Assembly: GCA_902705835.1 (NCBI GenBank)
Contig: CACSIN010000001.1
Coordinates: forward strand, 382,650 to 422,521
Reading direction: 5' to 3'
DNA length: 39,872 nt
DNA from: BD1-7 clade bacterium
GTDB taxonomy: Bacteria > Pseudomonadota > Gammaproteobacteria > Pseudomonadales > DT-91
Part shown: positions 472 through 37,300 of the stretch, one piece after another
Layout of the letters: each line of letters opens with the position of its first letter
How positions within the stretch are numbered: the stretch's first letter is position 1
Translations under genes and position numbers: made by a program
Notes under the pieces: model-generated
Seen by the model: the letters and a program-made list of their open reading frames with translations, nothing else
Databases searched by the model: none
Told to the model about the DNA's origin: nothing

Positions 472-2214
472 TCAAGTGGTAAGAATGCGCATCAAGTTTT
501 TAACGTCTTCACGAATATCACCATTGGTTTCTTTCAACTCAGCCACCTTACGACACGCATGTAAAACCGTTGTATGATCTCGCCCACCAAAAGCATCGCC
601 AATTTCTGGCAAACTATGACTGGTCAATTCTTTAGCCAACGCCATCGCAACTTGCCGCGGGCGAGCCACGGATCGATTTCGGCGTTTTGACAAAAGATCT
701 GATACCTTGATCTTGTAATATTCAGCAACCGTTTTCTGAATGTTATCAATACTCACCAAACGGTCTTGTAATGACAACAGATCTTTAAGAGACTCCTTGA
801 TGAGCTCAATGTCGATCGGCCGCGCTTTAAAGTGCGCTTGAGCAATAACACGCTTCAATGCCCCTTCAAGTTCACGAACATTCGAACGCAATCGTTGTGC
901 AATAAAGAACGCCGCATCTCTGGGTAGCTCCATATTTGCCTGATCTGCCTTCTGTAAAAGAATCGCTACACGTGTTTCCAACTCAGGGGGTTCAACCGCA
1001 ACGGTCAGCCCCCAGCCAAAACGGGATTTGAGACGTTCCTCAAGCCCTTTAATTTCTCGTGGATATCGATCACAGGTCAGAATGATCTGCTGACCACCTT
1101 CAATGAGTGCATTAAAGGTATGAAAGAATTCTTCCTGAGAGCGTTCCTTGTTTGCGAAAAACTGAATGTCATCGATCAGCAGCGCATCAACACTGCGGTA
1201 ATAACGTTTAAAATCGTTAATCGCGTTGAGTTGCAATGCTTTTACCATATCCGCAACAAATCGCTCGGAATGCAGATACACAACTTTGGCATTCGGTTTT
1301 TTCTTCAGTAGCTCATTACCAACGGCGTGCATAAGGTGAGTTTTACCAAGACCAACACCACCGTAGAGGAAAAGTGGATTATAGGAACCACCGGGGTTTT
1401 CCGCGACCTGCATCGCTGCTGCCCGGGCCAATTGGTTTGACTTACCTTCAACAAACGTTTCAAACGTATAGTTATTAATAACGTTGTTTTGTTGCTGACC
1501 TGCACCCGCGTTTGGCGATGGCGGAGGAATGTTGTCAACCGGCGGCGGCTCTCTGTTGGCAAAAGTATTTTCCTGACCAGATACCAGATGCGGATTACTG
1601 TCTTGAATGACCGAAGCAACAGCCGCCTGTTGATTACCCGAGGCTTGATTGGCGATACCATCACCTGCACCAATAGGGTAGCGATCATAAGAAGGAGCGT
1701 TGACGCTAGGACGCTCAGCAGCCTTCACCGCCGGCGGTTCAACATCAATAATGCCACGGTGATTATTATCACTGTGGGTGGGTGATTCCATATAACCGGC
1801 GTTTTTATCCGAGTTCGACGAGATGGTCGCTTTACCGGGCGATGATGTGAGATTAGACGCACCGGCTTCATAACCTTCAAAGCGCCCAATATCCTGCCCT
1901 GCTGACGGCGAAGCAGATGCATACCCCCCGGCCGCCGGTGCATCACTTTGCGAACGCTGACTCAATTCATCAGCCAATACAACCGCAGCGGTCAAGCCCA
2001 TTCCTTGGCTTAATTGATTCAGTAATTCGTTAATGCGGGGCAAATATTTATTCTGAACCCAATCTTTTACAAATCGGTTAGGCGCAATTAAGACTAATTC
2101 CGGCAAGTAGTTCAGATTCACCTCAAGCGGATTTATCCACGTTGAGAACTGCTGGGCAGGCAATTCTTCGTGCAAGATAGCAACACAGCGTTGCCAGACT
2201 TCATTCGCTGACAC
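472..2214 (-). CDS. dnaA: Chromosomal replication initiator protein DnaA
   Basis: DnaA binds DnaA boxes at oriC, opens the duplex and loads the helicase; it also regulates transcription. Domain I (about 1-80) has the [16 protein letters not shown] segment. Domain II (about 85-245) is a long, low-complexity linker rich in Pro, Asn, Gln, Ser and Gly. Domain III (AAA+) begins near [11 protein letters not shown] (about 249), with Walker A GGVGLGKT at 285-292 and Walker [10 protein letters not shown]. Domain IV carries the box-binding signature [11 protein letters not shown] at about 546-556. I chose the GTG at 2212-2214, giving [10 protein letters not shown] and 580 residues. A TTG two codons upstream (2218-2220) would give 582, but GGAC at about 2224-2227 is better spaced for the GTG. 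At 580 residues it is well over 100 longer than E. coli DnaA (467), and the excess is almost all in domain II. It is transcribed away from the 2215-3182 gap. Confidence 0.97.
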
Positions 2215-2831
2215 AAGCAAAACGTCCGTTCTATTGTCAATGCAACTCTCATCGGCTCTCTATATGACTATAAGAAGCCGACCAATTATTCGTCGTGATC
2301 GATAAACCAAACTCACTACCTGATAAACCTAAACCTGCGCAAAGAGCGAACCTAACTTGAAGCATTACAACTTCAGAGCGGCGGCACAGAATAACAATAG
2401 ACGCGAATTTAACGTCGACCCTGCGTGAGATCCTCAGCAATGCAGACTGTCATTTTTACAACGACAGCCGAAGCAACCTTCGAACAAATCTCATCAACAC
2501 AATCATGCTCGCAATTTCTACTTTGTTTGGTTGATCAAATGAACTGTTTCACGACCCAACATCGTATTGATTACCCACAATTACTGCTGGCAATAAATAT
2601 AATTTCCGATTGCAGCTCATCTTTAACAATGAAAGAAGGGCGTGCATTACTCATAAAATAGGCACGTTCACTTCATCCACCAGATTGAGGCACTCGATCG
2701 GAAAGAGCGCACGCCGATATGGCTAGGTTCGAAAAAATGCAGAAATAAGCGCCGCTATAAGAAAACCTATTCACAGGTTGGCAAACGTTATTTTCTGTCA
2801 CATGGACTTATTCTATAGCTGTTAATTAAAC

Positions 2832-2840
2832 TTATCCACA
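2832..2840 (+). promoter_or_regulatory. DnaA box, perfect consensus
   Basis: TTATCCACA is an exact match to the DnaA binding consensus. It lies in the AT-rich half of the dnaA-rpmH gap, about 620 bp upstream of the dnaA start. It may serve dnaA autoregulation or be a remnant or auxiliary part of an origin. Confidence 0.7.
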
Positions 2841-3105
2841 AACACATCACTTTTTTAGCATTGAATTTATTATTGTTTAAATTCAACAACTTACACACAA
2901 CAACCTACAACTATAGATGTTATTTATTGGCACTACACTTGTTGATAAGTTGTTTGAAAAAATACTTCCGGGTAACACAAACATTCGATATTGCAAGGCA
3001 CTGTTGAAATAATACTCAATTTAATGACTCCGCTTATTCGCCCCTGCCAATCAATATGCTCTTAACCGATTATTATAAATAAATAGTTTATAGCCGACGG
3101 ACATG

Positions 3106-3134
3106 TTGTTTTTTTGCGCGGTAATCTCTATAAT
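3106..3134 (+). promoter_or_regulatory. Sigma70-type promoter of rpmH
   Basis: TTGTTT (3106-3111) and a perfect TATAAT (3129-3134) are separated by 17 bp, about 50 bp upstream of the rpmH start. No other strong promoter was seen before yidC, so it probably drives rpmH-rnpA and may reach yidD-yidC-mnmE. Confidence 0.7.
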
Positions 3135-3182
3135 TCGCCACCCTTAATTCAGGCAAGTTTAACGCTAAGTACGGTACTGAAC

Positions 3183-3317
3183 ATGAAAAGAACATTCCAA
3201 CCTAGTGTGCTGAAACGCAAACGTACCCATGGTTTCCGTGCGCGCATGGCAACAAAAAATGGCCGCAAGATCATTAACCGTCGTCGCGCCAAAGGTCGTG
3301 CTCGTCTTTCTGCGTAA
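3183..3317 (+). CDS. rpmH: 50S ribosomal protein L34
   Basis: L34 is a 44-residue, highly basic protein of the large ribosomal subunit. The whole sequence is typical: it starts [19 protein letters not shown] and ends [12 protein letters not shown]. The frame is open further upstream (an ATG at 3114), but the family length and the conserved MKRTFQPS start fix the ATG at 3183. It is the first gene of the rpmH-rnpA-yidD-yidC-mnmE cluster, behind a strong promoter. If replication starts at about 7.9 kb, this gene is transcribed against the fork. Confidence 0.98.
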
Positions 3318-4153: not shown

Positions 4154-5902
4154 ATGGATAAAGTCAGGTTAGTTCTGTTAGCCGCCTTTGCGATGGTCAG
4201 TCTGATGCTGGTTGTCGAATACGGCCAATTCAGAGATGCCAAAAGCAAAGAAGCGCTGATGCAACGCCAACAGGCAACTCCCGTCGCTGGGGCAAGCCCG
4301 GCCCAAGGCACTGACGAAGCGATTCCAACCCAATCTAGTTTGCCTACCATTACTGGCGGAACCGACGACGTTCCAACACTCTCAGGATCAGAGCTTTCGA
4401 TCGATGAACCCCGTGTTCCATCAAACCGCTTAATCGAAGTGACTACCGATAACTTCGCCATCAAGATTAACCCTAAAGGGGGTGACTTGGTTTATCTGGC
4501 GCTACGGAAGGAATCAGCACGCCTCGACACGCCTGATATCCCATATGTACTGCTCGAAGAAACCCAGGAAAACACCTACATTGCCAGCTCCGGTCTAATC
4601 GGTGCCAATGGCACAGACACAGCTAAAGGACGCCCCACCTTTCATAGTGCGCAAAGCAAATACCGGTTAGAAGATGGCAAAGATACGCTGCAAGTCGACC
4701 TGACACTGCAGCAGGGCGATGTCAGCTTAATCAAGCGCTTTACCTTTACCCGTGATGATTATCTGATTGATATCGATTACCTGATTAACAACCGCAGCAG
4801 CAGCCCGTGGAAAGCAGCTTTCTATGCGCAAATTAAGCGTGATAGCAAACCGATGCCCGAAGCTGGTGGCGCCGGAATGGGTATGCAACCCTATTTAGGA
4901 TTCGCAACACGTACACAGGAAGACCGATTTCAAAAAGTGGATTTTGAAGATATAGAAGAAAAAGCCTTCAAAACTCAGATCGAAGGTGGCTGGGTAGCCA
5001 TGATCCAGCATTATTTTTTGAGTGCCTGGATTCCGGATGCAAATACAGAAAACAGCGTCAGTATTTTCCGCGCCAAGAGCGGGTTTAATTACGCAAGAAC
5101 AACCACGCCAGTCATGGTGGTAAAGGCTAACGACGAAGGAAAAATCCACAGTGAATTTTATGCTGGGCCAAAGGATCAGTACCAATTAGAGAAAATTTCT
5201 GAAGGCCTCGATCTCAGTGTTGATTATGGTTTCTTATGGATGATTGCCCAGCCGCTGTATGCGCTGCTGTTCTTTTTCAATACCGGAACATTACACGCCT
5301 TCGGCTACAAACTAGACATCTTTGGCGGTGTCGGTAACTGGGGCTTCTCTATTATCCTGTTAACCATTTTGGTTAAGGCTTGTTTTTACAGCTTGAACGT
5401 CAAAGCGTATACCTCGATGGCCAAAATGCGGGCAATTCAGCCGAAAATGCTGGCACTCAAAGAACGCCTTGGTGATGACCGACAAAAAATGTCGCAAGAA
5501 ACCATGGCGCTGTATAAAAACGAAGGGGTTAACCCTCTGGGTGGCTGTTTACCAATGCTGGTGCAAATGCCAGTATTCATCTCCCTTTACTGGGTATTGT
5601 TGGAGTCTGTAGAACTACGCCACGCACCTTTCATTGGCTACATCAAAGATCTATCAGCGATGGATCCATATTTCATCATGCCTTTGATCATGGGTGCCAG
5701 CATGTTTATTCAGCAAAAGCTGAACCCACCACCACCAGATCCAATGCAAGCCAAGATTATGCAGTTCCTGCCAGTAATCTTTACCTTCTTCTTCCTGTTC
5801 TTCCCATCAGGATTGGTATTGTACTGGGTAGTCAACAACTGCCTGACTATTGCTCAGCAGTGGTTTATTACGCGTCGCATTGAAGCGGCGGCTAACTCCT
5901 GA
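4154..5902 (+). CDS. yidC: Membrane protein insertase YidC (Oxa1 family)
   Basis: YidC inserts and folds inner-membrane proteins, alone or with SecYEG; the Fo c subunit encoded at 13961 is a classic client. The 582-residue protein has an N-terminal membrane segment (about 5-23), then a Ser/Thr/Pro-rich stretch, a large periplasmic domain (about 90-345) and the C-terminal insertase core. The core includes [38 protein letters not shown] and [14 protein letters not shown]. The position of the groove arginine in E. coli YidC is a lysine here (about residue 408, in [11 protein letters not shown]), a conservative change I believe is also present in Pseudomonas. The ATG at 4154 follows the yidD stop by 2 bp. 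Confidence 0.97.
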
Positions 5903-5921: not shown

Positions 5922-7298
5922 GTGTTAGCACAAGACACCATTGTCGCGATTGCCACCCCCGCAGGAAAGGGCGGGGTTGGTATCGTGCGTTTATCCGGTA
6001 AAGACGCGCTCACCATCGGTGAACGTTTAACTCAATCCGCACTTAAACCACGTTATGCCCACTTTACTGGGTTCTTCGAGAACGCCTCATCCACCACTGA
6101 TAACTTGCTGGATGAAGGCATTGTTATCTATTTTAAAGCCCCGCATTCTTTTACCGGTGAAGACGTCGTCGAACTGCAAGGCCACGGTGGTCCCGTATTG
6201 CTCGATGCTATCGTCCGTGAATGTATCCAACAGGGTGCGCGGATGGCAAATCCCGGGGAATTCTCCGAACGCGCGTTTCTCAATGATAAACTCGATTTAG
6301 CACAAGCCGAAGCCATCGCAGATTTAATCGATAGCAGCTCACTAGAGGCGGCCAAAAATGCCTTGCGATCACTGCAAGGAGCTTTCTCAAGTCATATCCA
6401 TCAATTGGTTGAACAAGTTACGCATCTGCGTGTATTTGTTGAAGCAGCGATTGATTTTCCCGAAGAAGAAATCGACTTCATTACAGACGGGCGCGTTTCT
6501 GAACAGCTTTCAGGCATCAAACAGCAATTAGCATCTACGCTGGAAAGCGCACGCCAGGGCAGTATCCTGCGTGAAGGTATGACGGTGGTTATTGCGGGGC
6601 GCCCGAATGCCGGTAAATCTAGCCTACTAAATGCTCTGGCAGGGCATGACGCGGCCATTGTCACAGACATTGCAGGCACTACTCGCGATGTTCTCAAAGA
6701 ACAGATTCACATTGACGGTATGCCCTTGCATATCATTGATACCGCTGGCCTTCGTGAGAGTGCGGATATTGTTGAACAAGAAGGCATCCGTCGAGCTTGG
6801 CAAGCCATTGAACAAGCCGATGCGATCTTGTTAGTCAATGATTCAACCACCACCGATATGACACTACCAGCCTCAGAAATCTGGCCGGCATTTACCCAGC
6901 GGTTGCCAAGTTTGGATCATTTAACCGTCATTCACAATAAGTGTGACCTCTCCGAAGTACAGGCATCAATGGACAACCATGACGGTGTCCCTGTGATCAA
7001 ATTATCAGCCAAAGCAGGCGATGGCTTGCCTCTATTAACCAATCACTTAAAAGCCATCGCCGGGCTGAATCAGCAAGCTGAAGGGGGATTCACAGCACGT
7101 CGCCGGCACCTTGATGCCCTCGAACGTGCGATGCGTTATCTAGATGCCGGTGAATTACAACTCAACAACCTCGGTGCGGGTGAACTTCTGGCTGAAGATT
7201 TACGATACTGTCAGCAATGTTTATCCGAAATTACTGGGGAATTTTCAAGTGATGACCTTCTCGGTGAAATTTTCTCCAGCTTCTGTATTGGCAAGTAG
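5922..7298 (+). CDS. mnmE: tRNA modification GTPase MnmE (TrmE)
   Basis: MnmE works with MnmG to install the cmnm5 group on the wobble uridine (U34) of certain tRNAs. The N-terminal folate-binding domain starts [19 protein letters not shown]. The inserted G domain has the P-loop GRPNAGKSS, the G2/K-loop region around [14 protein letters not shown] and NKCD. The protein ends in FCIGK, the conserved C-terminal cysteine motif. The open frame begins at 5850 inside yidC, but similarity starts only at about 5925. I take GTG 5922, giving 458 residues (E. coli 454) and a 19-bp gap after yidC. Its partner mnmG is the next gene but is separated by the origin-like gap. Confidence 0.95.
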
Positions 7299-7535
7299 CA
7301 CGATACTGCTTCTACACGCATCTCTGTGCACCCCACACGATTTTTGATTCCCTAAACAACACATCTAACCCCTTATCCGACAATCCTTTGCTCTACAGCA
7401 CCTACGAAATGATGCCTTCCATCGATCCGTTCGTACTCTTATCGTCCGATTCGATGTCTTGAGTACGTTTCTAATAACGTCATTAAACACAGGTAGCCGA
7501 CTGCAAATTCATCAATCCAATCCCTACAAAACGTG

Positions 7536-7673
7536 TTATCCACGTAATACACGTATATTCAACACACATTTTCCCAAAGAAACACCTAAAACTATACTTA
7601 TACACACATCGCACAGGGTTACCCACAGAAAAGCAAGAGGGTGAGGATAGTTTTAGCACCAGACTGTGCATAA
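7536..7673. promoter_or_regulatory. DnaA box cluster
   Basis: Four 9-mers match or nearly match TTATNCACA: 7536-7544 (plus), 7598-7606 (plus), 7619-7627 (plus) and 7665-7673 (minus). Two fit TTATNCACA exactly and the other two differ from TTATCCACA at one base. The last is in the opposite orientation, and the cluster lies beside an AT-rich tandem repeat, as in E. coli-type origins. Confidence 0.65.
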
Positions 7674-7850
7674 ACAGGCCACATACCCACAACCACTGAT
7701 AATACCCAACGTATACGTCGAAAACCATCCCGTTAGATACCGGTTAATCTCCATCTTAAGCGCAGTGAAATTACGTGCTTATGATTACATTAAGTGCTTG
7801 TTTTATTTGCGATTTGCGAACATATACACAGTATTTTTCGCTCTAGTAAT

Positions 7851-7918
7851 AACTAAATATATCTCTATATATACATCTCTATATATACATAAATACTTAT
7901 CTATATATTTCTTGTAGT
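7851..7918. repeat. AT-rich tandem repeat, candidate DNA unwinding element
   Basis: The 14-mer CTCTATATATACAT occurs twice back to back at 7863-7876 and 7877-7890, and the similar TTATCTATATATTTC follows at about 7897-7911. The whole block has almost no G. Its place between the DnaA boxes and mnmG suggests the duplex-opening part of an origin. Confidence 0.6.
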
Positions 7919-8035
7919 AAAACTACAAAAAACAGATTTCAGCGTTGATGGCGCGGATATACTGCGACAGGTATAATATGCAGCTGTTTTCAAATCGCGT
8001 ATCTCCGTGATTGAACGTCAACCCAGGACCTTTTT

Positions 8036-9925
8036 GTGAAATATCCCAAACATTTTGGCGTCATCGTGATTGGTGGCGGCCATGCTGGTACAGAAGCAGC
8101 ATTAGCCAGTGCGCGTATGGGCGTTGATACCTTATTACTTACGCATAACATTGATACGCTTGGTCAGATGAGTTGTAACCCTGCGATTGGTGGTATCGGT
8201 AAAAGCCATTTGGTGAGAGAAGTCGATGCTCTCGGCGGAGCAATGGCTCGTGCAACTGATGAAGCAGGGATTCAATTTCGGGTACTAAATTCACGAAAGG
8301 GACCAGCAGTGCGTGCAACACGAGCACAGGCTGATCGTGCATTATATAAAGCCGCGATTCGTCGAATGCTCGAAAACCAGCCACACCTGAGTATTTTTCA
8401 GCAGTCCGCTGATGACTTGATTGTTGAACAAGATCAAGTCCGCGGAGTTGTTACCAATATGGGTGTTAGTTTCTTTGCTGATGCCGTGGTATTAACCACA
8501 GGTACCTTTCTCGGTGGCAAAATCCACATTGGTTTGGATACAGCTTCAGGCGGTCGTGTGGGTGACCCACCATCGATCGCGTTGGCCGATCGCTTACGGG
8601 AATTGCCTTTTCGTGTTGATCGATTAAAAACCGGGACACCGCCTCGTATTGATGCGAAGACCGTCGATTTTACTGACCTTCAGGAGCAGTGGGGTGATAA
8701 GCCCGAGCCAGTCATGTCATTTATGGGCTCAGTACAACAACACCCTGAACAAGTTTGCTGCTGGATTACGCATACCAATGAAACTACCCATGAAATTATT
8801 CGCCAAGGATTAGATCGCTCGCCGATGTATACCGGCGTAATTGAGGGTATCGGCCCGCGTTATTGCCCGTCGATTGAAGACAAGATTCATCGTTTTGCCG
8901 ACAAGTCTTCCCATCAAATATTTATTGAACCGGAAGGCCTGAATACCCATGAATTATATCCAAACGGTATTTCGACCAGTTTACCTTTTGATGTACAGGT
9001 TCAATTGGTGCGTTCAATCAAAGGATTTGAAAATGCGCACATTACCCGTCCGGGTTACGCAATCGAATATGATTATTTTGATCCGCGAGATCTTAAACCT
9101 TCATTAGAAACTAAACTGATTGACGGTTTATTTTTTGCAGGTCAGATCAATGGTACAACCGGTTATGAAGAAGCTGCCGCTCAAGGTCTATTAGCAGGTT
9201 TGAATGCCGCTCGGCGTTTCCAAGAACTAGAAGCCTGGTGCCCGCGACGCGATGAAGCGTACATCGGCGTCTTAGTCGACGACCTAATTACCTTGGGAAC
9301 GAAAGAACCTTACCGCATGTTTACCAGTCGCGCGGAATACCGCTTGTTATTACGTGAAGACAATGCAGATTTACGCCTGTCAGAAAAAGCGCAGGAACTA
9401 GGGTTGCTTAGCGACGAGCAATGGCAGTGTTTTAGTGACAAAAAAGACGCGATTGCATCTGAAAATGAACGCTTGGGGAAAGTCTTTGTTCAGCCAGATT
9501 CAGCAGAGGCTGACGCTTACAACCGTTTGATTGATAAGCCACTCACCCATGAATACAGTTTGAAAGATTTGCTGAAACGTCCAGAAATCGGTTACACGAA
9601 TATTCAAACGATCAGCGGATCCCCGATCGACAACGATCAAGTTGTTGAGCAAGTTGAGATACAAAGCAAATATGAAGGTTATATCGCTCGCCAAAGTGAT
9701 GAAATCGATCGCTTGCGCCGCTACGAAAATACATTGATTCCGGAAGCATTGGATTTTCATCGTGTTAAAGGCTTGTCTAATGAAGTGACGGCCAAACTTA
9801 CCGATGCAAGGCCAACAACCCTTGGGCATGCACAGCGTGTACCGGGCGTAACACCGGCAGCAGTTTCATTGTTATTGGTCTATTTAAAGAAAAACGGAAT
9901 GCTGGAGCGCGTTAACATTGCCTGA
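8036..9925 (+). CDS. mnmG: tRNA uridine 5-carboxymethylaminomethyl modification enzyme MnmG (GidA)
   Basis: MnmG is the FAD-dependent partner of MnmE in wobble-uridine modification. The 629-residue length equals that of E. coli MnmG. The N-terminal dinucleotide-binding motif is [14 protein letters not shown], followed by [15 protein letters not shown]. Other family segments are [44 protein letters not shown] and [21 protein letters not shown]. The start is GTG 8036 with AGGA at 8025-8028, 7 bp away. The TGA overlaps the rsmG start by 8 bp, so the two are translationally coupled. A TATAAT about 60 bp upstream (7972-7977) is the likely -10 element, without a clear -35. Confidence 0.98.
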
Positions 9926-24410: not shown

Positions 24411-25631
24411 ATGTTCTTACTTCGTCGTGATTCCGCGTTTACTGACCCCAGACAAGTGCTTCGTTTGCTGTCATGGCTACGATTGGCTGCGTTTCTTGTG
24501 GTGATGAGCCTGTTGGCTATTGCGCAATGGGCGGGTATCGACGCCTTACAAGATGCTATTCATTGGCGTTGGATATTTGTCGGTCTGCTGTTAAGCATCC
24601 TGCTCAGCGGTGTTAGCATGATGCTGCGGAATACTTTGATTGATAATCGGTTGCTATATGCTGTTATCTTATTGGATATTCTCGCGTGGTTTCTGTTACT
24701 CAATGCCAGTGGCGGCTCGGTAAACCCGGCGGTTAGCTATTTGCTGGTCTTATTGTCGATCGCTGCGCTGTCTCTGTCGATCTCCCAGTCGGTTACCTTG
24801 CTTGTTGTTATCATGGCGTTTTACACGTTGATGATGCAGTACCAGCCGGCAGAAGGGCACCAGCATATGTTTGGTTGGCACCTATGGGGCATGTGGTTGT
24901 TGTTTCTGCTCAATGCGCTGGTCATGTTGGTGGTTATTGAATTACTGATTCACAAGTTGGCGCAAAAAGACCAGGCCATTGCTCGGTATAAAGAAAATAC
25001 CGTGCGTTCTGAGCAGCTAGTAATGATGGGCACGATGGCGGCAAACATTACCCATGAATTGGGTACCCCATTATCAACCATTGCCATGTTAACGGCAGAG
25101 CATGACAACGAGGATGCCGATCTTATTCGTGAGCAAGTTGAGCGGTGTAAGCAGGCATTGGGTCAGTTAAAAGCACTGGGTGATGATCAGCAGGCGAGTC
25201 AGTCTCTGGATAGTTCGGTATTTTTCGAACACCTACGGCAGGAATTACTGCTGATACAGCCGGGTGTAGCGCTCACAATCGATGATCAGCTACAGCAACC
25301 TTTTCGGGTAAGTTTGTTGTTGAACCAAGCGTTATTAGCATTACTAAACAATGCTTCTGATGCGTGTAGCAGTATTGTGACATTGTCTGCTTTTGAACAA
25401 GACAGCCGTTGTGTGCTGACCATAACACATGACGGTGATGGCATTAGCGAAGCACTCATTGAGCAGCTGGGCCTCACGCGTGTAGCTTCGGCGAAAAATG
25501 GTTTAGGCATTGGTTACTACCTGGCCAATGCATCGATTGAACGCCTTGGCGGTACGTTGACGATTCGTAACTTGGATGTTGGTGTTGAAACCCGCGTGTT
25601 ATTTAACCGTGAGGCGCTGATTGATGACTAA
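24411..25631 (+). CDS. regB: Redox-sensing histidine kinase, RegB/PrrB/RoxS family
   Basis: The product is a membrane histidine kinase that senses the respiratory quinone pool and redox state and phosphorylates its RegA-type partner. Its 406 residues hold about six membrane helices (roughly 23-42, 52-72, 80-98, 107-122, 125-143 and 158-180). The loop GGSVNPA at 101-107 corresponds to the quinone-binding GGxxNPF signature, with Ala in place of Phe. The H-box is NITHELGTPLST with His215. Cys246 in EQVERCKQ sits where RegB has its redox-active cysteine. The ATPase domain has NNASDAC, DGDGI and GLGIGYYLA. It overlaps the regulator gene by 8 bp (ATGACTAA). The Pseudomonas name would be RoxS. Confidence 0.9.
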   Translation: MFLLRRDSAFTDPRQVLRLLSWLRLAAFLVVMSLLAIAQWAGIDALQDAIHWRWIFVGLLLSILLSGVSMMLRNTLIDNRLLYAVILLDILAWFLLLNASGGSVNPAVSYLLVLLSIAALSLSISQSVTLLVVIMAFYTLMMQYQPAEGHQHMFGWHLWGMWLLFLLNALVMLVVIELLIHKLAQKDQAIARYKENTVRSEQLVMMGTMAANITHELGTPLSTIAMLTAEHDNEDADLIREQVERCKQALGQLKALGDDQQASQSLDSSVFFEHLRQELLLIQPGVALTIDDQLQQPFRVSLLLNQALLALLNNASDACSSIVTLSAFEQDSRCVLTITHDGDGISEALIEQLGLTRVASAKNGLGIGYYLANASIERLGGTLTIRNLDVGVETRVLFNREALIDD

Positions 25632-26175
25632 TATGGCTGAAAACGAAGCACTTGTTGTTGTGTTGCTAGAAGATGATGTTAGTTACGGTGGTGTTGCCAA
25701 ACGTTTGTTAGAAAAACGCGGGCATGAGGTTTTTTGGGCCGAAGATTTGACCGGCTTGAGCCATATTCTGAAGCAAGTTACCGATGCTGACATGGTGTTA
25801 CTGGATCTAAAACTAGCTAACACAACATCTCTGGATAGTGTTGCTACGGTGCGTCGGCACTATCCTCACGCCCGTATTTTTATGGTGACGGCGTATGCCA
25901 GTATTGCGACCACAGTAGAAGCGATGAAACGTGGTGCTGATGATTATTTGCCCAAGCCGATAACCATTGATGAAATTTTGCAAGCGTACTATGGCGAAAA
26001 GGAATCCGAGCCTTCTGTTAATACCAAACCGATATCGCCGAAACGGTTAGAGTGGGAGCATATTCAACGGGTGTTGCAGGAAAACAACGGTAACATCAGT
26101 CGCACCGCCGAACAACTCAATATGCATCGACGTACGCTTCAGCGCAAACTGCAGAAAAAGCCGGTAGACGAATAG
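25624..26175 (+). CDS. regA: Redox response regulator, RegA/PrrA/RoxR family
   Basis: This is the DNA-binding partner of the upstream kinase. The 183-residue protein has a receiver domain (about 10-125) with acidic Glu16, Asp17 and Asp18, phospho-acceptor Asp61 in MVLLDLKLA, Thr89 and Lys111 in LPKPIT. A Pro-rich linker leads to a C-terminal Fis-type helix-turn-helix NISRTAEQLNMHRRTLQRKL (158-177), the compact arrangement of RegA. I chose ATG 25624 because it overlaps the kinase stop, typical of coupled pairs; ATG 25633 is an alternative that would lose three residues. It may act on the palindrome at 24360-24376. Confidence 0.92.
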   Translation: MTNMAENEALVVVLLEDDVSYGGVAKRLLEKRGHEVFWAEDLTGLSHILKQVTDADMVLLDLKLANTTSLDSVATVRRHYPHARIFMVTAYASIATTVEAMKRGADDYLPKPITIDEILQAYYGEKESEPSVNTKPISPKRLEWEHIQRVLQENNGNISRTAEQLNMHRRTLQRKLQKKPVDE

Positions 26176-28300: not shown

Positions 28301-28321
28301 ACCGGTGACGTTGTCACCGGT
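28301..28321 (+). other. Hairpin just upstream of the giant gene ribosome binding site
   Basis: ACCGGTGAC (28301-28309) and GTCACCGGT (28313-28321) form a perfect, GC-rich 9-bp stem with a GTT loop. It ends 3 bp before AAGGAG (28325-28330), the ribosome binding site of the giant gene. No T-run follows, so it is not a standard terminator. It could act as an mRNA stabiliser, a partial attenuator or a binding site that sets expression of the giant relative to the small proteins. Confidence 0.7.
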
Positions 28322-28337
28322 TACAAGGAGTAGTTTG

Positions 28338-31300
28338 ATGAGCGCCAGTACGTATGTTTTAAACGGAACAGATAAGACCACCGATATTCGAATCAATGGT
28401 GGGAACTATCAGTCGATGTCAGCTTTGAACCTTCAGACGGGTAGTCTCGATCAAACAACTAAATTTTTATTAGACAGAAACCCTGCACCAGGCACACTGG
28501 GGTTGGGTGAAAATGAAGTGATTGTGAAGATAAACGGTACAATCACAACGTACACAGTGACCCTTGCCGATAGCATATTGATCACGTTCGATGTCCAGCT
28601 GATTGTATTTGAAAATACTATCGAACCTAAAAATACAATTAGTACCGAGGGTTTTACCGTAACACTAACGTCTCAATCCAATGCGACATTAGCGATTTCA
28701 GAAGCACAACAAACGACTCGATGTGTCAGACACCTTAATGCGTTCGCTACCAGTGCAGCCGAAACACTTCAGTTCACACGTATTGCGACCAACGAAAAAG
28801 CCGCCCTCTATCAAAGCGATTTGAATCCCACAAAATCTGGCACTCTAGCTTTTACCTTCTTTTACCGTTTTGCAGATGGCTCAGATGCACCGGAGGTTTT
28901 GTCCCTACAAGCTTCCTATGACGATAAAGGGGCTTATGTATTTACTGACGACAATATTGCCTCCGAATCCTTGTTGACTGAGCTGAATAGCGTGCTCACG
29001 TCAGATTCACTGGGATATTCGCGGGTTGCATGGCGCCGTAACAGTGATGATTACAACGTGATTCAGGTGTCTGTTGTTGCTGCGATAGTTGCTAACGCTA
29101 ATTTTGAAATCGGTACCTGGAACCTGCTATTAGCTGAGCGGGCGACGTTAACTCTTGAGGCTGAGACACAAAGCATTGTCATTCAAAATGTATCTGGCGA
29201 ACAAAATTTGGTAGTGCAGGTGAAAGAAACCGGTGTACCTCAACCGGTAGGATCTAACCCGTCTGAAGTGTTGATTCCACTAGCCGGCGATCAGCGAGGT
29301 AGTATGATATTGGCTTGGGATTGGGGTCACTATTCCCTTTCTCAACATTACGGTGGCAGTCAGCGATTATTTTTTGGCAACTCAACTGAAAAAGCAGAGG
29401 TGGCGCAATACCCGCTGTTTATTCCCGCACCTGACCCTGGGCCTTTTGCTGATATCGATTTGTACTTCCACGTGTATCTGCAACCATTGGCAGAGCTTGA
29501 CGACAATCGCACCCGGTTTTCTCTCGATTTACAGCAGGAAAACAAGCTAACAGCTCATTATCTATCGACGACAACGAATACTCCCGTGTCATTGACGCCG
29601 GATAGCAATGCTGCAATGACAGCAGGGTTTGGTTGGGCAATTAATGCGGGGGACGAAGCCTCGGATCGTTACCTATGCCCCGTCGGTGCGTATGCTGTCG
29701 TTGGAGATGGTGCCGAAAAACGTTTGCAAATACGTGGTGGTGTCAGTGGTACTGAATATGTATTGGTTGAAGCTAATGATGTCTTGACCTTTAAGAGCCG
29801 ACAACCGGCCTTTGCTCAGGGTTATACACCGGATGGCAGTGCTCCAGTCAAACTCGATGATACGCTAACTACCAGTTGGGTAGAGGTGAGCTTGCGCCAA
29901 CAACAAGCGACAGCAGACGGCACACTGATTGACACTAGTTACTGCGCTCAATCGTCTGCATCAACCTATTTCGGCGCAGAGCTAAATCCTTCATACCAAT
30001 ACCCAATTGCTGTCGGCGCCAGTCTTTTGCGCTTTTCTGAGCCTACCGACCTGACACTATTTCCCATGTTGCCATACGGTGGTGTGTTTTATTCCGACGC
30101 TGATCAGGGGATAGAAAGCCCCAATCCGGATTTGTCCGCAGATAATCTCGATGCCATTGAGCAGCAATTAATTGCGCCGCTTCGTCGCTCTACCTTGCAG
30201 CCCTTTTTTGACGCGGTTTATGGCCCGATCTTTTTCGATACATCAACTAGCACTGCGCTGGAAGGAGGCTACGCTCGCACCCCGTTGGGTCTAGTGGCGG
30301 GATTAAATACATCTGTTGCAGCACCAACGCCCGCAGGTACTATCAAGGATATTATTTTAGCGACAAGCCCGCAGATCCAAAACCAACGGTTGGTATTAAC
30401 GGCAAATGATAGCGGCGTTGTCAATCCAGTATTCAGCAACAATACATTGAACGACACCCTGTTCATGGTGGCAACAGATGCTGATGCGTTGGCACCCTTT
30501 GCCAATGAAATTAAGCTCGGTGACTTTACCTACGAGGTCAATCTCGGTAATCAGACCAACCAGGCAATAGCCATTTTTAAATTTATACCCGGTGTCAGCG
30601 CTCGTACACTAATCAATGACACATATGCCTGGACCAGCCTGACGGGCGATACTCCTGATGCTGATGTACAAAAACGTTTGCAAGCATACATTCAGGCTGC
30701 AGACGAGGGTGGCGATTTATTTGAAGCGTTCCGGCAAATGATCGACAACCCGAACTGGAATGGTTTGTTGATATTCAATTGCCCGCTCGATTATCAGGCA
30801 CTGCCGCTGGATATACAGATCCTGCTCGGCGGCATCTGTGGGCAGCTTCGGGCACATCACTTTGGCGTGAATATCAACCGGGTTGGTGCCGATGGTGCCA
30901 ATGTTGAATACAGTTCACTGTTCTCAGTGATCAATTATGAATCGATATTCGGCGATTGTAATCCACCATCGCAGACTGGCGATCCGAGTTTTCAAGTACT
31001 GAAGCTGAATGTTCGTTATGCCAACAGTAAGCTGGCAGTGTTTGATTCCCAGATAGCATTCAGCATACAAAGATTGTTCGAGAGCCAGGTGACATTAAGT
31101 GTTTGCCCACCGACTGATTATAAGGACACGGGTACGATTGTTATTGATGGCGTTTATACGCTAAATGAAGATGGTACAGGATCGTTAGTGTTTGCCACTA
31201 CAGACTTGCGCAGTTACACCTATGATGCTGATAGTGATACCTATACGCCGTTGACGGCGCAGTCAGTAACCAATGCTGCGCTGGTACCCGTTACGCGAAA

Positions 31301-34300
31301 AGTGGGCACTGGAGATTGCACCACGATAGCTAAGTCTGCATTTCGTATTGATGGCTTGTTGGCATTTCAGGCTGACGTCGGTGGTGATTTATTTTCATTC
31401 GGTGTGGTCGTAGATGGTGTTCCTAGTGAAGGGCTGGCGATTACCGCATACGCGTTCGACATGGATACCTGCATTAAGTCAGACAACACGGCAGAGATAT
31501 TAGGCACCATTGCCGCCAACATCGATAACCTGAAAGTGGATCAGGTGTTAACCAAAGCCCGTGAAAACAGCTTTGATGAAACGTTTCCCAGCCAGATCCA
31601 AAGTCTGATATCTACCCCTGACGGATTGACACCTGCACGCACTGGTGACTGGCAGGTTAGCGTTTCAGGTTCAGACTTTGACGCCTCACCGCGCTTCAGT
31701 CTCGTGTTTGATGTGCCTATGGGCATTTTGGGGATGTTGTTATCGACCAAAACCGACTTAACAGCCCGCATAATGATTGGTTGGGATCCTCAAGGTAAAG
31801 ACAATAAACAAGTGGGTGCCGTATTGCAGTTACCGTCAGAGGTCGCTGGCCCGGGTGGGTTTGAGTTCCAGGGTATTATCTCAACCAGTTTTGAACGCGT
31901 GGATTTGAATCGCATTACTCTGAGCTCAGGCACCGGTGGTGATGACGTTAAGGTATATGCGCTGTACTTTGTGTATTTTCAAGGCAGCTTGCTGAATCTG
32001 TTGTTTAACTACGACCTGTCGCCAAAAGATTTGGGGTTCTTTGGCGGGCCGACGGATCCAGGCGGCAGTAACTCCCTGTTTTTTGTCGGTAAGTCGACGG
32101 GTAAAGATTGGAAAGGTCCAACCATGAGTGTGACCTTGGAAGACGTACCATCGGCGTTTTTGGGGCGCTCATATGAAATAAAAACAGATCCGACTAACCC
32201 TAATGTTATTAGCGATGCCTATGACAAGCTCAATCCTTTGGTCGAAAAAACGGTCGAGGAATTCATTAATATCGTTTATGCCAACCGTTCACTGTATAAC
32301 GCCGACGCTGGTATTGCGTTCGGATTACAGTTTGACTTCAAGAGCCTGGCGTTAACCGCATTGTTGCATGATTCAAGCTTTTACGGCGCACAGATAAAGA
32401 TCACACCTTCGAAGGATAAAAAAGGTGATGATAGTACCAAGAAGGTTGCGAATGACTCCCACCGTGAACTTAATCATATCCCGATTACCCCAAACAGCGA
32501 CAACGCCAGTGTAATTCTAGCTGAGGACAGTGATGGCGAAGAGAAGATGGGGTTTCTTGATCAGGTCGAAGGTCTGACATTTACTATCATCTACCGCAAG
32601 GTCAGTGATCAGGTCGGTGTGTGGTCTGCCGATATCTATTTGAATTTGGGAACGATCAATATCGGTACCTTTTCGTTATCGCTACCAAACTTCAGTGTTT
32701 CGATCTGGACTAACGGTGACTGGCGTTTTGCCATTGGCTGGCCGTTCACTGGCAGTAATGCACACCCAATCACGATTCAGTTTCAAGCCGGTCCGATTCC
32801 GGTGATTGGCCAGGCAGGTTTCTACTTGGGTAAACTCAGCAGTGCGGCAGCACCGGATCAGTTTGGTGACGAATTTAATTTGATTTGGAGCTTTGGCGCA
32901 GGTGTATCCGGTGGCGTCGGTAAAAAATTCAAGGAAGGGCCTTTGAGCGCTGAAGCGAGCGTTATGCTGTCGTTGATTCCACAAGGTTTTCTGGCGTCAT
33001 TTGATGGCAAGATGACTGATGATGGAGTTGACTATTGGTGGTGGGGTATCGGGTTATCGTTAACCGGTAAGGTTGGTGGCAAGGTCGATTTCAAAATCAT
33101 TGTTGTGCAGGTGTCGTTAACGATTTCTGTTAATTTGGCATTTGCTATCGAAACGGCACACAAAACGCCGCTTACTATGAATGTTACTGTAGAAGCGAAG
33201 GCTTCGATAAAGATTGTTTTTGTAAAAATCAGCTTCTCTTTTAAAACCAAGCTGGATTTATTTACCTTTACTTTTGGCAATGGACCAACGGCCAGTCTCA
33301 GTGGGCCCACGCCGCAGGCTGCAGCAGCGCTGTTTAATAGCTCAGTATTGACGCGCGAAGCAATTCATCATATCCGTCAGACTGGCGACAACACACCACA
33401 CAACTACCGTGCGCCCGGTCCGGCGTTTACTTTTGATATCAACACGACAACGCCGGAAACGATTGTTGTCGATTTCTTGCTACAGACGACGTCTATCAGT
33501 CAAGACGGTTCGACGTGGGCACCACAAGGGGTTGCGACACTGGTGCTTGAATCGGGTGATCAGGCTTCACCTTTTGGCAAGCTCTCGAAAGGGTTGGCAC
33601 AGTGGCTCGTCAGCTCTTATGGCGGTGATGGCAGTTTTGATTCTCAATTAGCAGCGACAGCCGCCGCCTTGGAAGACGGGCGTTTTAATGATGCAGTTGA
33701 ATCAGCACTGTCGGAGATGTTTGTATTCGCCATCAGCGCAGCCGACTACAGTGCCGAAACCGCAACCGTCGGTATGGTTATGCCAACCAGTTTGGTGATT
33801 GCCTATAACAATACCAGCACATTGGCGAATCCACTGCATGCCTGCTTGGCAGATAATCGCTTACCGGGTAACTACGAGCAAATGGTCCATGCCTATTTTG
33901 AGCATGGTCGTTCAGATCTCAACATCAAGGCTACAGAAGACGGTGATGGCTCCATTGCACAAACCCTGTTTGATGGTTATTTCGTTGTCTTGAGCCAACA
34001 GCTGATCCAACTGTTGATTGAAACCGGTGCGCCAGATTTAGATACGGCATTGTCAGAGATCAGTTTGAGCGATCTGGGTGGATTTGTATCGCGCTTTATC
34101 ATGGGGGGAGTTCGGTTACCTGATCCTACTGATCCGAATGTATTGACCGCATTGTATCTGTTGACCAGCCAGCAATTTGGCTTACAAAAATCCGGTGATA
34201 ATTGGGTGCTGGATGCGGCGATCAAGGAGACTGGCGATACGCCTGACTGGATTACAGTTGCTTCCGATACCACCTCTCGCTTAGATGATAGCATGGTGCA

Positions 34301-37300
34301 TACCATCGGGCCGCAGAGCCAACCATGGACCATTGAAGCGTTACCTCCGCTAGCCCTTGAAACACCGCATTATCCGATTAACAACAATACTAACTGGCAG
34401 AAGGGTGATGGTGTCGAGCGCATTATTAACTTGCTGTCCGAAGACATAAAACAAGGCATTTTTGATTGGCAGAATGCTCAATCTAATGACGGTGGCCCCT
34501 GGCTATCGCTGGTGCTTCAGAGCGGTGATGATACCGGTGGCCAGGCCGATCTTTCTGCACCGGGTACGCCCTGGGAGGCCTCGGCAGCATTATCATTATC
34601 TGTGGAATTAGCAGGTATACCCGATGGCTCTGGCGAACCGGGGGCTATTTTGCCGAATATATTCTCAATATTGGGCACGAATGAGGCCGACAGAACCTTA
34701 TTGCAGGACCTTCTGGATGACGTTGAGGCCGGATTAGCAACCATAGATTTTGCTGACTTGTTAGCCAGTGCCAGTCGCGGAAATTGGGAATCCACAAAAG
34801 CGCCGGAAGTTTTGGTGCGGACCGATTTATCAACCAACAGCTTGCCGCCTGCAATGACAACAGACGATGGCGAAGGTGGTACTCAAGGGTGCGCTAACTA
34901 TGCAAAACCGGCAGAGGGTGGTGATGAACTGATTCGTTTCTTGCGTCTGATTTGGGAGGTCTCTGTTAACCACAGCACAGGCTTCTTCCTACAAGTGGAT
35001 GGGCTTGACCTTAGTCAGTTCGAAACTGGGCCTGCTAATTTCACTTTATTAATCGGTTTTGGAGAGACTGGAAGTACTGTTGCTGCTAAGGGCTATCAGA
35101 ACGCGTTAGTGGGCAAAAAACCGGATGCGGACTCCGGTATCTTTGCTACATTGGCTTCGGATGACGACGGTACGCCGATTCAGGCGTATGTATCAGCCTA
35201 TCCCGGTGGTGATGTCGGATGGAATATCAGCTGGCAAGATGCACCCGACGAGGCAGCAGCGGATAGTGGTGATTACTTGCTTAGTTTGTATCAGATGGCC
35301 AGCTATCGTATCGAAGCGATTAACGATAAGCCTGTCGACAATCCATGGAGCCGGCCACTGAACGCTGAAAATACAACCCCGGAAGGTAGTGACCAAACCC
35401 AGTGGAACTTCCACACGGTGATTTCCAACGACCAATTAAACACGTCAGGCAATCGTTATGCATCTGTCGGCGATACGATTAATGTCGCCATATCGATGGA
35501 AGATGTTTTTGGTAATAGCTTGCCAGATTCGATGGTGCGCACAATCGATCTGGACATTGTCTATAACGACAATATTCAAGGAATCAGTGATTGGCCTGGT
35601 TCACAGGCCAGCTATGTCATCACAAATGACAAGGGCGTTATTCTGTCGCTTAATCTGGCATTCGATCCAACGATTGTTCAGGATAGTGATGGCAATGTCG
35701 ATCCAGACCAGCTGGCGCGAACGGTGGAACAATATGCGTTGATCAAGGATCAGCTGATGGATCCGAATATGAATGCCGGTATCAGTACCGCAGAGATACT
35801 GAATAGCGGCCTCATCATCAAACAGATCGATCAATCAACAGTGATATCTGGCCTTGTCGCCTATATCGATGGGATTTCGGCCTGGTTAGCCACAGGAACA
35901 ACGGGCACGGCTCCCGCTGCGTCCATATTGTCTGCCTTTTTGGAAAAAGACTATCCGACGAACTGGCCGGGAGACTTGCAACAATTGACCGTCTCATTGG
36001 CACTGACACGTGATCATGTTACTGATGATATTGCTGAAAAAATGCCTGATGTGCGCCATGTATCGACACCGGTGCAACCGGTCGAACAAGCCAGCACTGA
36101 AGAAGATCCGTCAGGATTAACCAGTTTTGCGGATAATTTTGAGTTGGCTTACTTTCCGTTTGATGGCAGTCAGGGCGTCATCAAAGTTGCCACCGGTACG
36201 GATAACGATATTACCAGCCAGACGTTTGGCCGGCGCAGTATCTGGATTCAACGTTGGAGTGATAATCAGGGAACGTCGGTAAAAATCCTCAATGACGATG
36301 ATCATCCGCCGATTTTTTATGCGCCTCCACCGTTGAGTACGCAATTGATTACCCGAACAGTCGACGATTTGCGTAATTATTCAGATCCCGACAACTGGAC
36401 ACCACACAGCCAGGTTTTCAGCAGTATTGATTTGGATGTTTGGGGAGAAAACTTCCTGGCGACGGTTGAAACACTGTTTAGTCCGACAAAATCGACGGCG
36501 ACGGCGGACGCTTCAACACCACAAACACCACTTTATGATCCGTTTGTAGCGAATAAAGAGTCGCTTGCCGAATCTGTCTCATCAAGCATTGAGTATGTTT
36601 ATGATGAGGCCGAAGGCACTGGCGATCCGTCATCGGCTCGTGAAACCTGGAGACAGGCGTTGCTGCGCACGTTGAATAACGATTATGGGTTTTCAACACT
36701 CACACAGCTAGAAGCGCTTGTGAAACTCAACGGTGAGATTGAGCCTGATGGTGATCCGAATAATCCACCTCTTTTATTCGGTGCGGTTGAAGCAGCAGGG
36801 GGCTCGGATGACAAGGCGTTACCTTACGCGCTAACACCGGCAACCTTGCCCTTGACGCAAGGCACTAACTGGTTAAATACGCTGGTGTCTGCAAGAGATC
36901 CGTCGGCGCAGAGAGCATTCACGCTGGATCTGGATTATCAAGTCAATCAAATCGAACACCACCGTGATGGGTTGGCAGCGAAATGCGGCTATACACCGTC
37001 GAATTGGTTGACCTTTATTCTGCAGCAAAACCCTGCCGAAATGCCACAAGGTCAGGATAACACGCTGACTCAACCGATTGGCACGACACGTATTCCGATT
37101 CCATTAAGAACCTATCCGCCATTACCTAAGTTGTTGCAGGCTGCGGCAACCAAGTCGGCAGAAATTACCACAATCGCTGATGCCATGACGTGGAATCTGG
37201 ATTTGACCATTGAGCGATCTAACGCAGATCAGGACACATTAAATCTGCTGTTGAGCTTTAATGAACAACAAAATGCGTTTGATATTGAAACACCGACCCT

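Follow-up and report, generated by a model that had tools for sequence, protein, structure and literature searches.

A probable chromosomal origin in the mnmE-mnmG gap of a BD1-7 clade gammaproteobacterium

Introduction

At which of two intergenic gaps does chromosome replication start in a bacterium that carries dnaA and mnmG in one locus? In Pseudomonas the origin lies beside dnaA, in the dnaA-rpmH gap. Gammaproteobacterial origins next to gidA (mnmG) have also been published, as described for DoriC 10.0 (PMC6323995). The DNA analysed here, called the window, is a stretch of 39,872 nt (C1:382650-422521) from the 5.06-Mb draft genome (30 contigs) of a BD1-7 clade bacterium, a clade placed by NCBI in the Spongiibacteraceae, Gammaproteobacteria. 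The nearest named locus is that of BD1-7 clade bacterium SB11_3 (MnmG 99%). Positions refer to the window unless a contig is given. The genes are arranged in the order dnaN (minus), dnaA (minus), gap A, rpmH, rnpA, yidC, mnmE, gap B, mnmG, rsmG, a parA-like and a parB-like gene:

472-2220, minus strand: dnaA (PF00308, PF08299, PF11638)
2221-3182, no strand: gap A, the dnaA-rpmH gap (962 bp), probable dnaA promoter control region with five box-like sites
3183-3317, plus strand: rpmH (TIGR01030)
4154-5902, plus strand: yidC, third-codon GC skew −0.146, lagging-strand-like
5931-7298, plus strand: mnmE, third-codon GC skew −0.272, lagging-strand-like
7299-8035, no strand: gap B, the mnmE-mnmG gap (737 bp), proposed oriC, with the GC-skew minimum (7933) and the densest DnaA-box cluster, both of 400 kb
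8036-9925, plus strand: mnmG (gidA) (TIGR00136)

Searches of the window for tRNAs and for Rfam families at gathering score found neither. Further along, on the plus strand, a histidine kinase gene and, after it, one for a response regulator with a Fis-type helix-turn-helix occupy 24411-26175, and an open frame of 3339 aa (28305-38324) has no Pfam match at E up to 0.001. C1:381325 carries a perfect parS palindrome and C1:380653 a copy with one mismatch; they lie 1.3 and 2.0 kb before the window begins, to the dnaA side as seen from the proposed origin. A search for dif gave one site with three mismatches, on contig C28.

Results

GC skew over 400 kb

GC skew was followed over C1:190001-590000 (400 kb). 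All 20 of the ten-kb bins before position 7352 had negative values, and all 20 after it positive ones. The cumulative GC-skew minimum was found at 7933, inside gap B, and the keto-skew minimum at 7934, while TA skew alone had its minimum at 50606, away from gap B. A two-level change-point model gave its best point 15 bp past the mnmG start (dlnL −0.2 for gap B, −23.3 for gap A), and 95% of bootstrapped minima (3-kb autocorrelation kept, 500-bp resolution) fell between −1685 and +815 relative to the mnmG start. Within the 400 kb of this draft genome, gap B has the position at the GC-skew switch that is expected of an oriC. The switch in the dnaA-rpmH gap that would mark a Pseudomonas-type origin was not found. 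This supports the first-pass annotation, which had placed the origin in the gap before mnmG and not in the dnaA-rpmH gap, and argues against the alternative that replication starts at dnaA, as in Pseudomonas, and that the mnmG gap merely controls mnmG.

A skew minimum at 2.2-3.2 kb of the window, or elsewhere in the chromosome, had been named as evidence against this placement. The minimum lies outside 2.2-3.2 kb; a place elsewhere in the chromosome is excluded in part, for the pieces sampled from 7 of 30 contigs. A further twenty samples of 20 kb, taken from C1 and, with two or three pieces each, from six other contigs, contained no second negative-to-positive switch inside a contig (total sampling 800 kb of 5.06 Mb). 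In the samples from contig C6, skew changed from +0.063 to −0.010. Skew is a record of past replication, not of present initiation.

Third-codon skew as a control for gene direction

Since skew may follow gene direction, genes on the same strand were compared between the two arms. Plus-strand ORFs had a mean third-codon skew of −0.173 left of dnaA (n = 62) and of +0.124 right of mnmG (n = 92). For yidC and mnmE, both on the plus strand and pointing away from dnaA, the pooled value was −0.197. When 20,000 pairs were picked at random from the 47 right-arm plus-strand genes of at least 350 codons, none was as low; right-arm pairs averaged +0.117, the lowest single right-arm gene had −0.195, and pairs from 24 left-arm genes averaged −0.163. 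Of the other genes in the same block, rpmH had −0.222 (only 18 informative positions) and rnpA +0.2 (only 55 informative positions). Values below the right-arm mean were obtained for mnmG (−0.060), rsmG (+0.029) and the parA-like gene (−0.007), and parB had +0.192.

The left-arm-like skew of yidC and mnmE indicates that these genes have long been copied as left-arm genes, with the origin to their right. Their lagging-strand skew is a further point against an origin at dnaA. The same control bears on the idea that gap B is no origin at all, and instead a DnaA-regulated mnmG promoter or a titration site, with the skew switch falling there by coincidence of gene order. A conserved TATAAT about 60 bp before mnmG (see below) would fit this idea. 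However, same-strand genes flip the sign of their third-codon skew between the arms, and the values of yidC and mnmE match those of the left arm, so that we consider this idea extremely improbable.

DnaA boxes and AT-rich DNA in gap B

Elements in gap B are, from left to right:

7483-7491, plus strand: DnaA-box-like TTAAACACA, one mismatch; not among the sites of G004
7536-7544, plus strand: DnaA-box-like TTATCCACG, one mismatch; kept in G004
7598-7606, plus strand: DnaA box TTATACACA; kept in G004, aligned to CTATACACA in G005 and TTACACACA in G001
7619-7627, plus strand: DnaA-box-like TTACCCACA, one mismatch; kept in G004, aligned to TTATACACA in G001
7665-7673, minus strand: DnaA box TTATGCACA; kept in G004, aligned to TTATCCACT (minus strand) in G001
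7822-7830, plus strand: R1-like box ATATACACA, off consensus, its start 214 bp before mnmG
7843-7853, plus strand: DnaA-trio-like element CTAGTAATAAC, 12 bases past the R1-like box
7854-7913, no strand: AT-rich tandem repeat, proposed unwinding element, from repeat search and AT content
7972-7977, plus strand: TATAAT, likely −10 element of an mnmG promoter, about 60 bp before mnmG

A search for TTATNCACA with at most one mismatch gave 336 sites over the 400 kb. The six in gap B start at 7483, 7536, 7598, 7619, 7665 (minus strand) and 7822, two of them exact. Four DnaA-box-like 9-mers within 140 bp had been reported for this gap; we find four in 138 bp (7536-7673), the only four-in-140-bp cluster among the 336 sites. 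The intergenic gap thus contains the clustered boxes, at least three, that are expected of an oriC. The strict box TTATCCACA does not occur in gap B, and its sole copy in the window is in gap A; genome-wide, it was counted 52 times on both strands versus 23 times for the reversed pattern. The pattern TTWTNCACA was not enriched across the window (3 found, 4.84 expected from whole-window shuffles), so the signal of gap B lies in the clustering and not in the number of boxes.

The tandem repeat at 7857-7890 has a 14-bp unit in 2.4 copies, inside an array that reaches to 7908. The best 100 bp, starting at 7832, are 81% AT, a value reached by 0.008% of the 100-bp windows in the 400 kb. An AT-rich element beside the boxes, as expected of an oriC, is therefore present as a predicted unwinding element. 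The first-pass annotation had described this repeat as adjacent to the boxes. The repeat is real, but the four-box cluster ends about 185 bp before it, and the box that abuts it is the weaker sixth one at 7822. An IHF-like site with one mismatch is located at 7791, between the box cluster and the R1-like box; such sites occur at 1.6 per kb in the window. TATAAT is kept at the aligned position in G004, G005, G001 and G002, consistent with a role in an mnmG promoter.

A box-spacer-trio module before the AT-rich repeat

The R1-like box at 7822 is aligned to TTATTCACA in G005, TTATACACA in G002 and TTATCAACA in G001, and these are followed by TTAATAATAAT, CTAATAATAAC and CTAATAATTAC, respectively. 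Scored at 17 positions against a consensus chosen after inspection of these sequences, a post hoc choice that bears on all module scores given here, the window reached 15, the sole match that high on both strands of the 400 kb. E. coli scored 16. Gap A scored only 12-13, and a score of 13 occurs 45 times in the 400 kb, which again argues against an origin at dnaA. Among 17 other stretches, only three had the module before mnmG as their sole best match: those of G001 and G004 (100 kb each) and MG1655.

As an intended independent test, a cmsearch profile of the module, called R1, was built from 13 sequences from outside the order. It did not find the window module at E up to 10, and its five matches in the same genome (E 0.7-1.2; 150 of 1005 candidates scored) were all elsewhere. 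Over 42 sources, R1 gave mnmG-side matches at E < 0.001 in four loci (L006, L020 and L026, titled Pseudomonas, and L007, titled Paucimonas MAG); in other loci, weaker matches were seen on both sides. As the profile misses the window module, we take the likeness of the box, 12-base spacer and trio-like element in gap B to an E. coli core as suggestive.

Gap A and the possibility of a second site

Gap A carries box-like sites at 2571, 2767, 2832, 2891 and 2940 (minus strand) and, at the 300-bp scale, ranks second among the box clusters of the 400 kb (four sites). The earlier statement that this gap has only one perfect box holds for the site at 2832, but the gap is not poor in boxes, as four sites with one mismatch are also present. 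As judged from the sequence, it most likely serves dnaA autoregulation or DnaA titration, and it may have a share in initiation alongside this putative regulatory role. The one perfect TTATCCACA with its four imperfect companions favours an origin in gap A, as do three genomes of the same order (G025, G023 and G042) with a better box-trio match in their dnaA-rpmH gap; set against the skew, third-codon and module data, we hold this placement to be very unlikely.

The two gaps, which lie 4.1 kb apart, could also act together: the origin may be split, or the dnaA-rpmH gap may hold an active second site beside a main origin at mnmG. They are the two densest box clusters of the 400 kb, and both are box-rich in Pseudomonas loci as well. 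According to DoriC 10.0, some Gammaproteobacteria have two predicted origins (PMC6323995), and a review describes bipartite origins with two box clusters around a spacer gene (PMC4285127). According to this review, however, such origins reach about 2 kb (PMC4285127), and here a single GC-skew switch is seen, at one gap. An involvement of both gaps is in our view unlikely. It overlaps with the reading that we prefer, an origin in gap B, since both start at mnmG, so the likelihoods stated in this text do not sum to one.

Skew, gene order and box clusters in relatives

Of the same-genus genomes G001, G002, G003 and G004, the skew comparison covers two, with the GC-skew minimum at −12 (G001) and −103 (G004) relative to the mnmG start. 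Two genomes of the same order with the same gene order had it at −377 (G034) and −25 (G011), a Porticoccus MAG (G061) at −129, and the control E. coli MG1655 (40 kb) at +32, i.e., 32 bases into mnmG. The keto minima were at +38477 in G001, −286 in G004, +1088 in G034, −41 in G011, −143 in G061 and +2070 in MG1655. In 11 of 17 other genomes, several of them with weak skew, the GC-skew minimum did not fall within 400 bp of the start of mnmG. For the three Pseudomonas stretches, G038, G048 and G052, the local skew was weak or gave no information. G050 had its minimum left of both gaps; in G015 and G008 it fell between the two, in G023 just past mnmE and in G040 1 kb inside mnmG.

Two of these genomes are particularly informative. 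G001 carries extra DNA between mnmE and mnmG, and G011 between dnaA and rpmH; in both, the switch remains at mnmG, with gap A worse by 12.9 and 15.9 lnL units, respectively, which speaks against a two-gap origin. Porticoccaceae carry the rpmH-rnpA-yidC-mnmE block in inverted orientation; its ends fall in the two gaps, which creates dnaA/mnmE and rpmH/mnmG junctions (seen in the G061 stretch, L226-L230, and from the order of genes in L011 and in L003, a duplicate record of G061). The inverted block of G061 points away from the mnmG-side gap, with replication, and the skew switch is still at mnmG (dnaA side −27.5 lnL). This is hard to reconcile with a switch that merely reflects gene order around a promoter or titration site.

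Box clusters also precede mnmG in Pseudomonas, Vibrio, Alteromonadales and Pasteurellaceae loci and in Porticoccus (L003; L011 has a weaker one). In the betaproteobacterial loci and in three Moraxellaceae loci (L027, L028 and L063), they were missing or weak. Pseudomonas loci among L004-L026, and L077, have DnaA-box sites in both gaps, and in many of them CTATCCACAG or TTATCCACAG stands as a box some 195-250 bp upstream of mnmG.

Place of the module across genomes

The better module is in the mnmG gap in G000, G004, G005, G049, G021 and G020, and in the dnaA-rpmH gap in G025 (L251; 15 versus 0 in gap B) and G023 (L196-L200; 16 versus 11). In G025, yidC and mnmE have a leading-strand skew of +0.125, which fits a move of the origin, while the lagging-like block skew of G023 (−0.119) is against it. 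G034 scores 15 in the dnaA gap and 13 in the mnmG gap, yet its skew switch is at mnmG, which contradicts the use of the module as a marker of origin place.

Module place was compared with yidC-mnmE skew in those 69 of 118 entries that have the block intact and in this orientation, or 65 without four duplicate records. The two were correlated in the expected direction over these 65 genomes, which are not independent (rho −0.45, P 2e-4). This is mostly due to the seven betaproteobacterial loci, without which rho was −0.25 and P 0.06 (n = 58, likewise not independent). Block skew was negative in 27 of 28 entries with the better module before mnmG (by at least 2) and in 21 of 22 with in-between scores, and positive in 9 of 15 with the better module before rpmH.

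Discussion

Our data make it very probable, as far as sequence can tell, that gap B (7299-8035) is the chromosomal origin, a DnaA-dependent oriC at the location known from E. coli. The position of the skew switch, the box cluster, the AT-rich element and their order were computed directly, and from these we infer binding, melting and initiation as follows. DnaA would bind to the box cluster at 7483-7673, and a DnaA filament would start at the R1-like box (7822) and extend over the trio-like element (7843). Next, the AT-rich repeat (about 7854-7913) would melt and the helicase would load there. The left fork would copy the rpmH-mnmE block and dnaA, and the right fork mnmG, rsmG, the parA-like gene and parB.

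This places the origin for this genus and cautions against placing it at dnaA by default in this order. Within the order, movement of the origin between these gaps is plausible. A more far-reaching version, which we put forward only tentatively and regard as rather doubtful, is that the origin core (box, short spacer, trio, AT-rich DNA) moved between gaps A and B lineage by lineage within one order, and that E. coli-type and Pseudomonas-type origins are alternative losses from an ancestor with both gaps active. Comparing both gaps makes the question of origin movement testable.

Comparison with known origins

The kind of origin is known already, and the window adds a new example in an informative gene order. 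Like E. coli K-12 oriC (NC_000913 3925744-3925975), gap B lies directly upstream of mnmG, ending at its start (8036), as the first-pass annotation had recognized. It had also named mioC as the other neighbour in E. coli, which we confirmed in MG1655, and mnmE as the neighbour here; mnmE indeed ends at 7298, directly before gap B. In E. coli, by contrast, the dnaA-mnmE block is about 37 kb off and mnmG is in the opposite orientation.

E. coli also differs in GATC content, with 12 sites in 350 bp versus one in the 737 bp of gap B (2.6 expected). A SeqA gene was found in none of six genomes of the family, and among 14 control genomes E. coli was the sole positive. GATC enrichment and SeqA control, as in an E. 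coli-type origin, were thus not found for gap B, and with one GATC and no SeqA found, regulation by SeqA in the E. coli manner is likely absent here. In the gidA-adjacent oriCs presented with DoriC 10.0 (PMC6323995), there are likewise two candidate gaps, and the gidA-side one was taken as oriC, as we do. The decision there was made by GATC enrichment, which gap B lacks, so it is not favoured by that measure.

The bacterial basal unwinding system is described as a DnaA box, a spacer peaking at about 10-13 bp, and trios with the consensus 3′-GAT-5′ (PMC8287927). CTA on the strand of the window, the start of the element in gap B, is 3′-GAT-5′ on the other. The trio-like element in gap B, with its box and 12-base spacer, bears a suggestive likeness to this system, but only its first trio is GAT.

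Pseudomonas has the same gene block, with boxes in both gaps; unlike its origin, that of the window is indicated by skew and box-trio match to lie in the mnmG gap. With dnaA, both box-bearing gaps and mnmG all within 10 kb, the layout stands between the textbook cases of Pseudomonas and E. coli. With mnmG read forward, MG1655 oriC has the R1 box TTATCCACA, 13 bases, CTAATAAGAGATC, AT-rich DNA and mnmG. Gap B shares this order of R1-type box, 12-13 bases, CTA-starting element, AT-rich DNA and mnmG, and a GC-skew minimum at mnmG is common to both.
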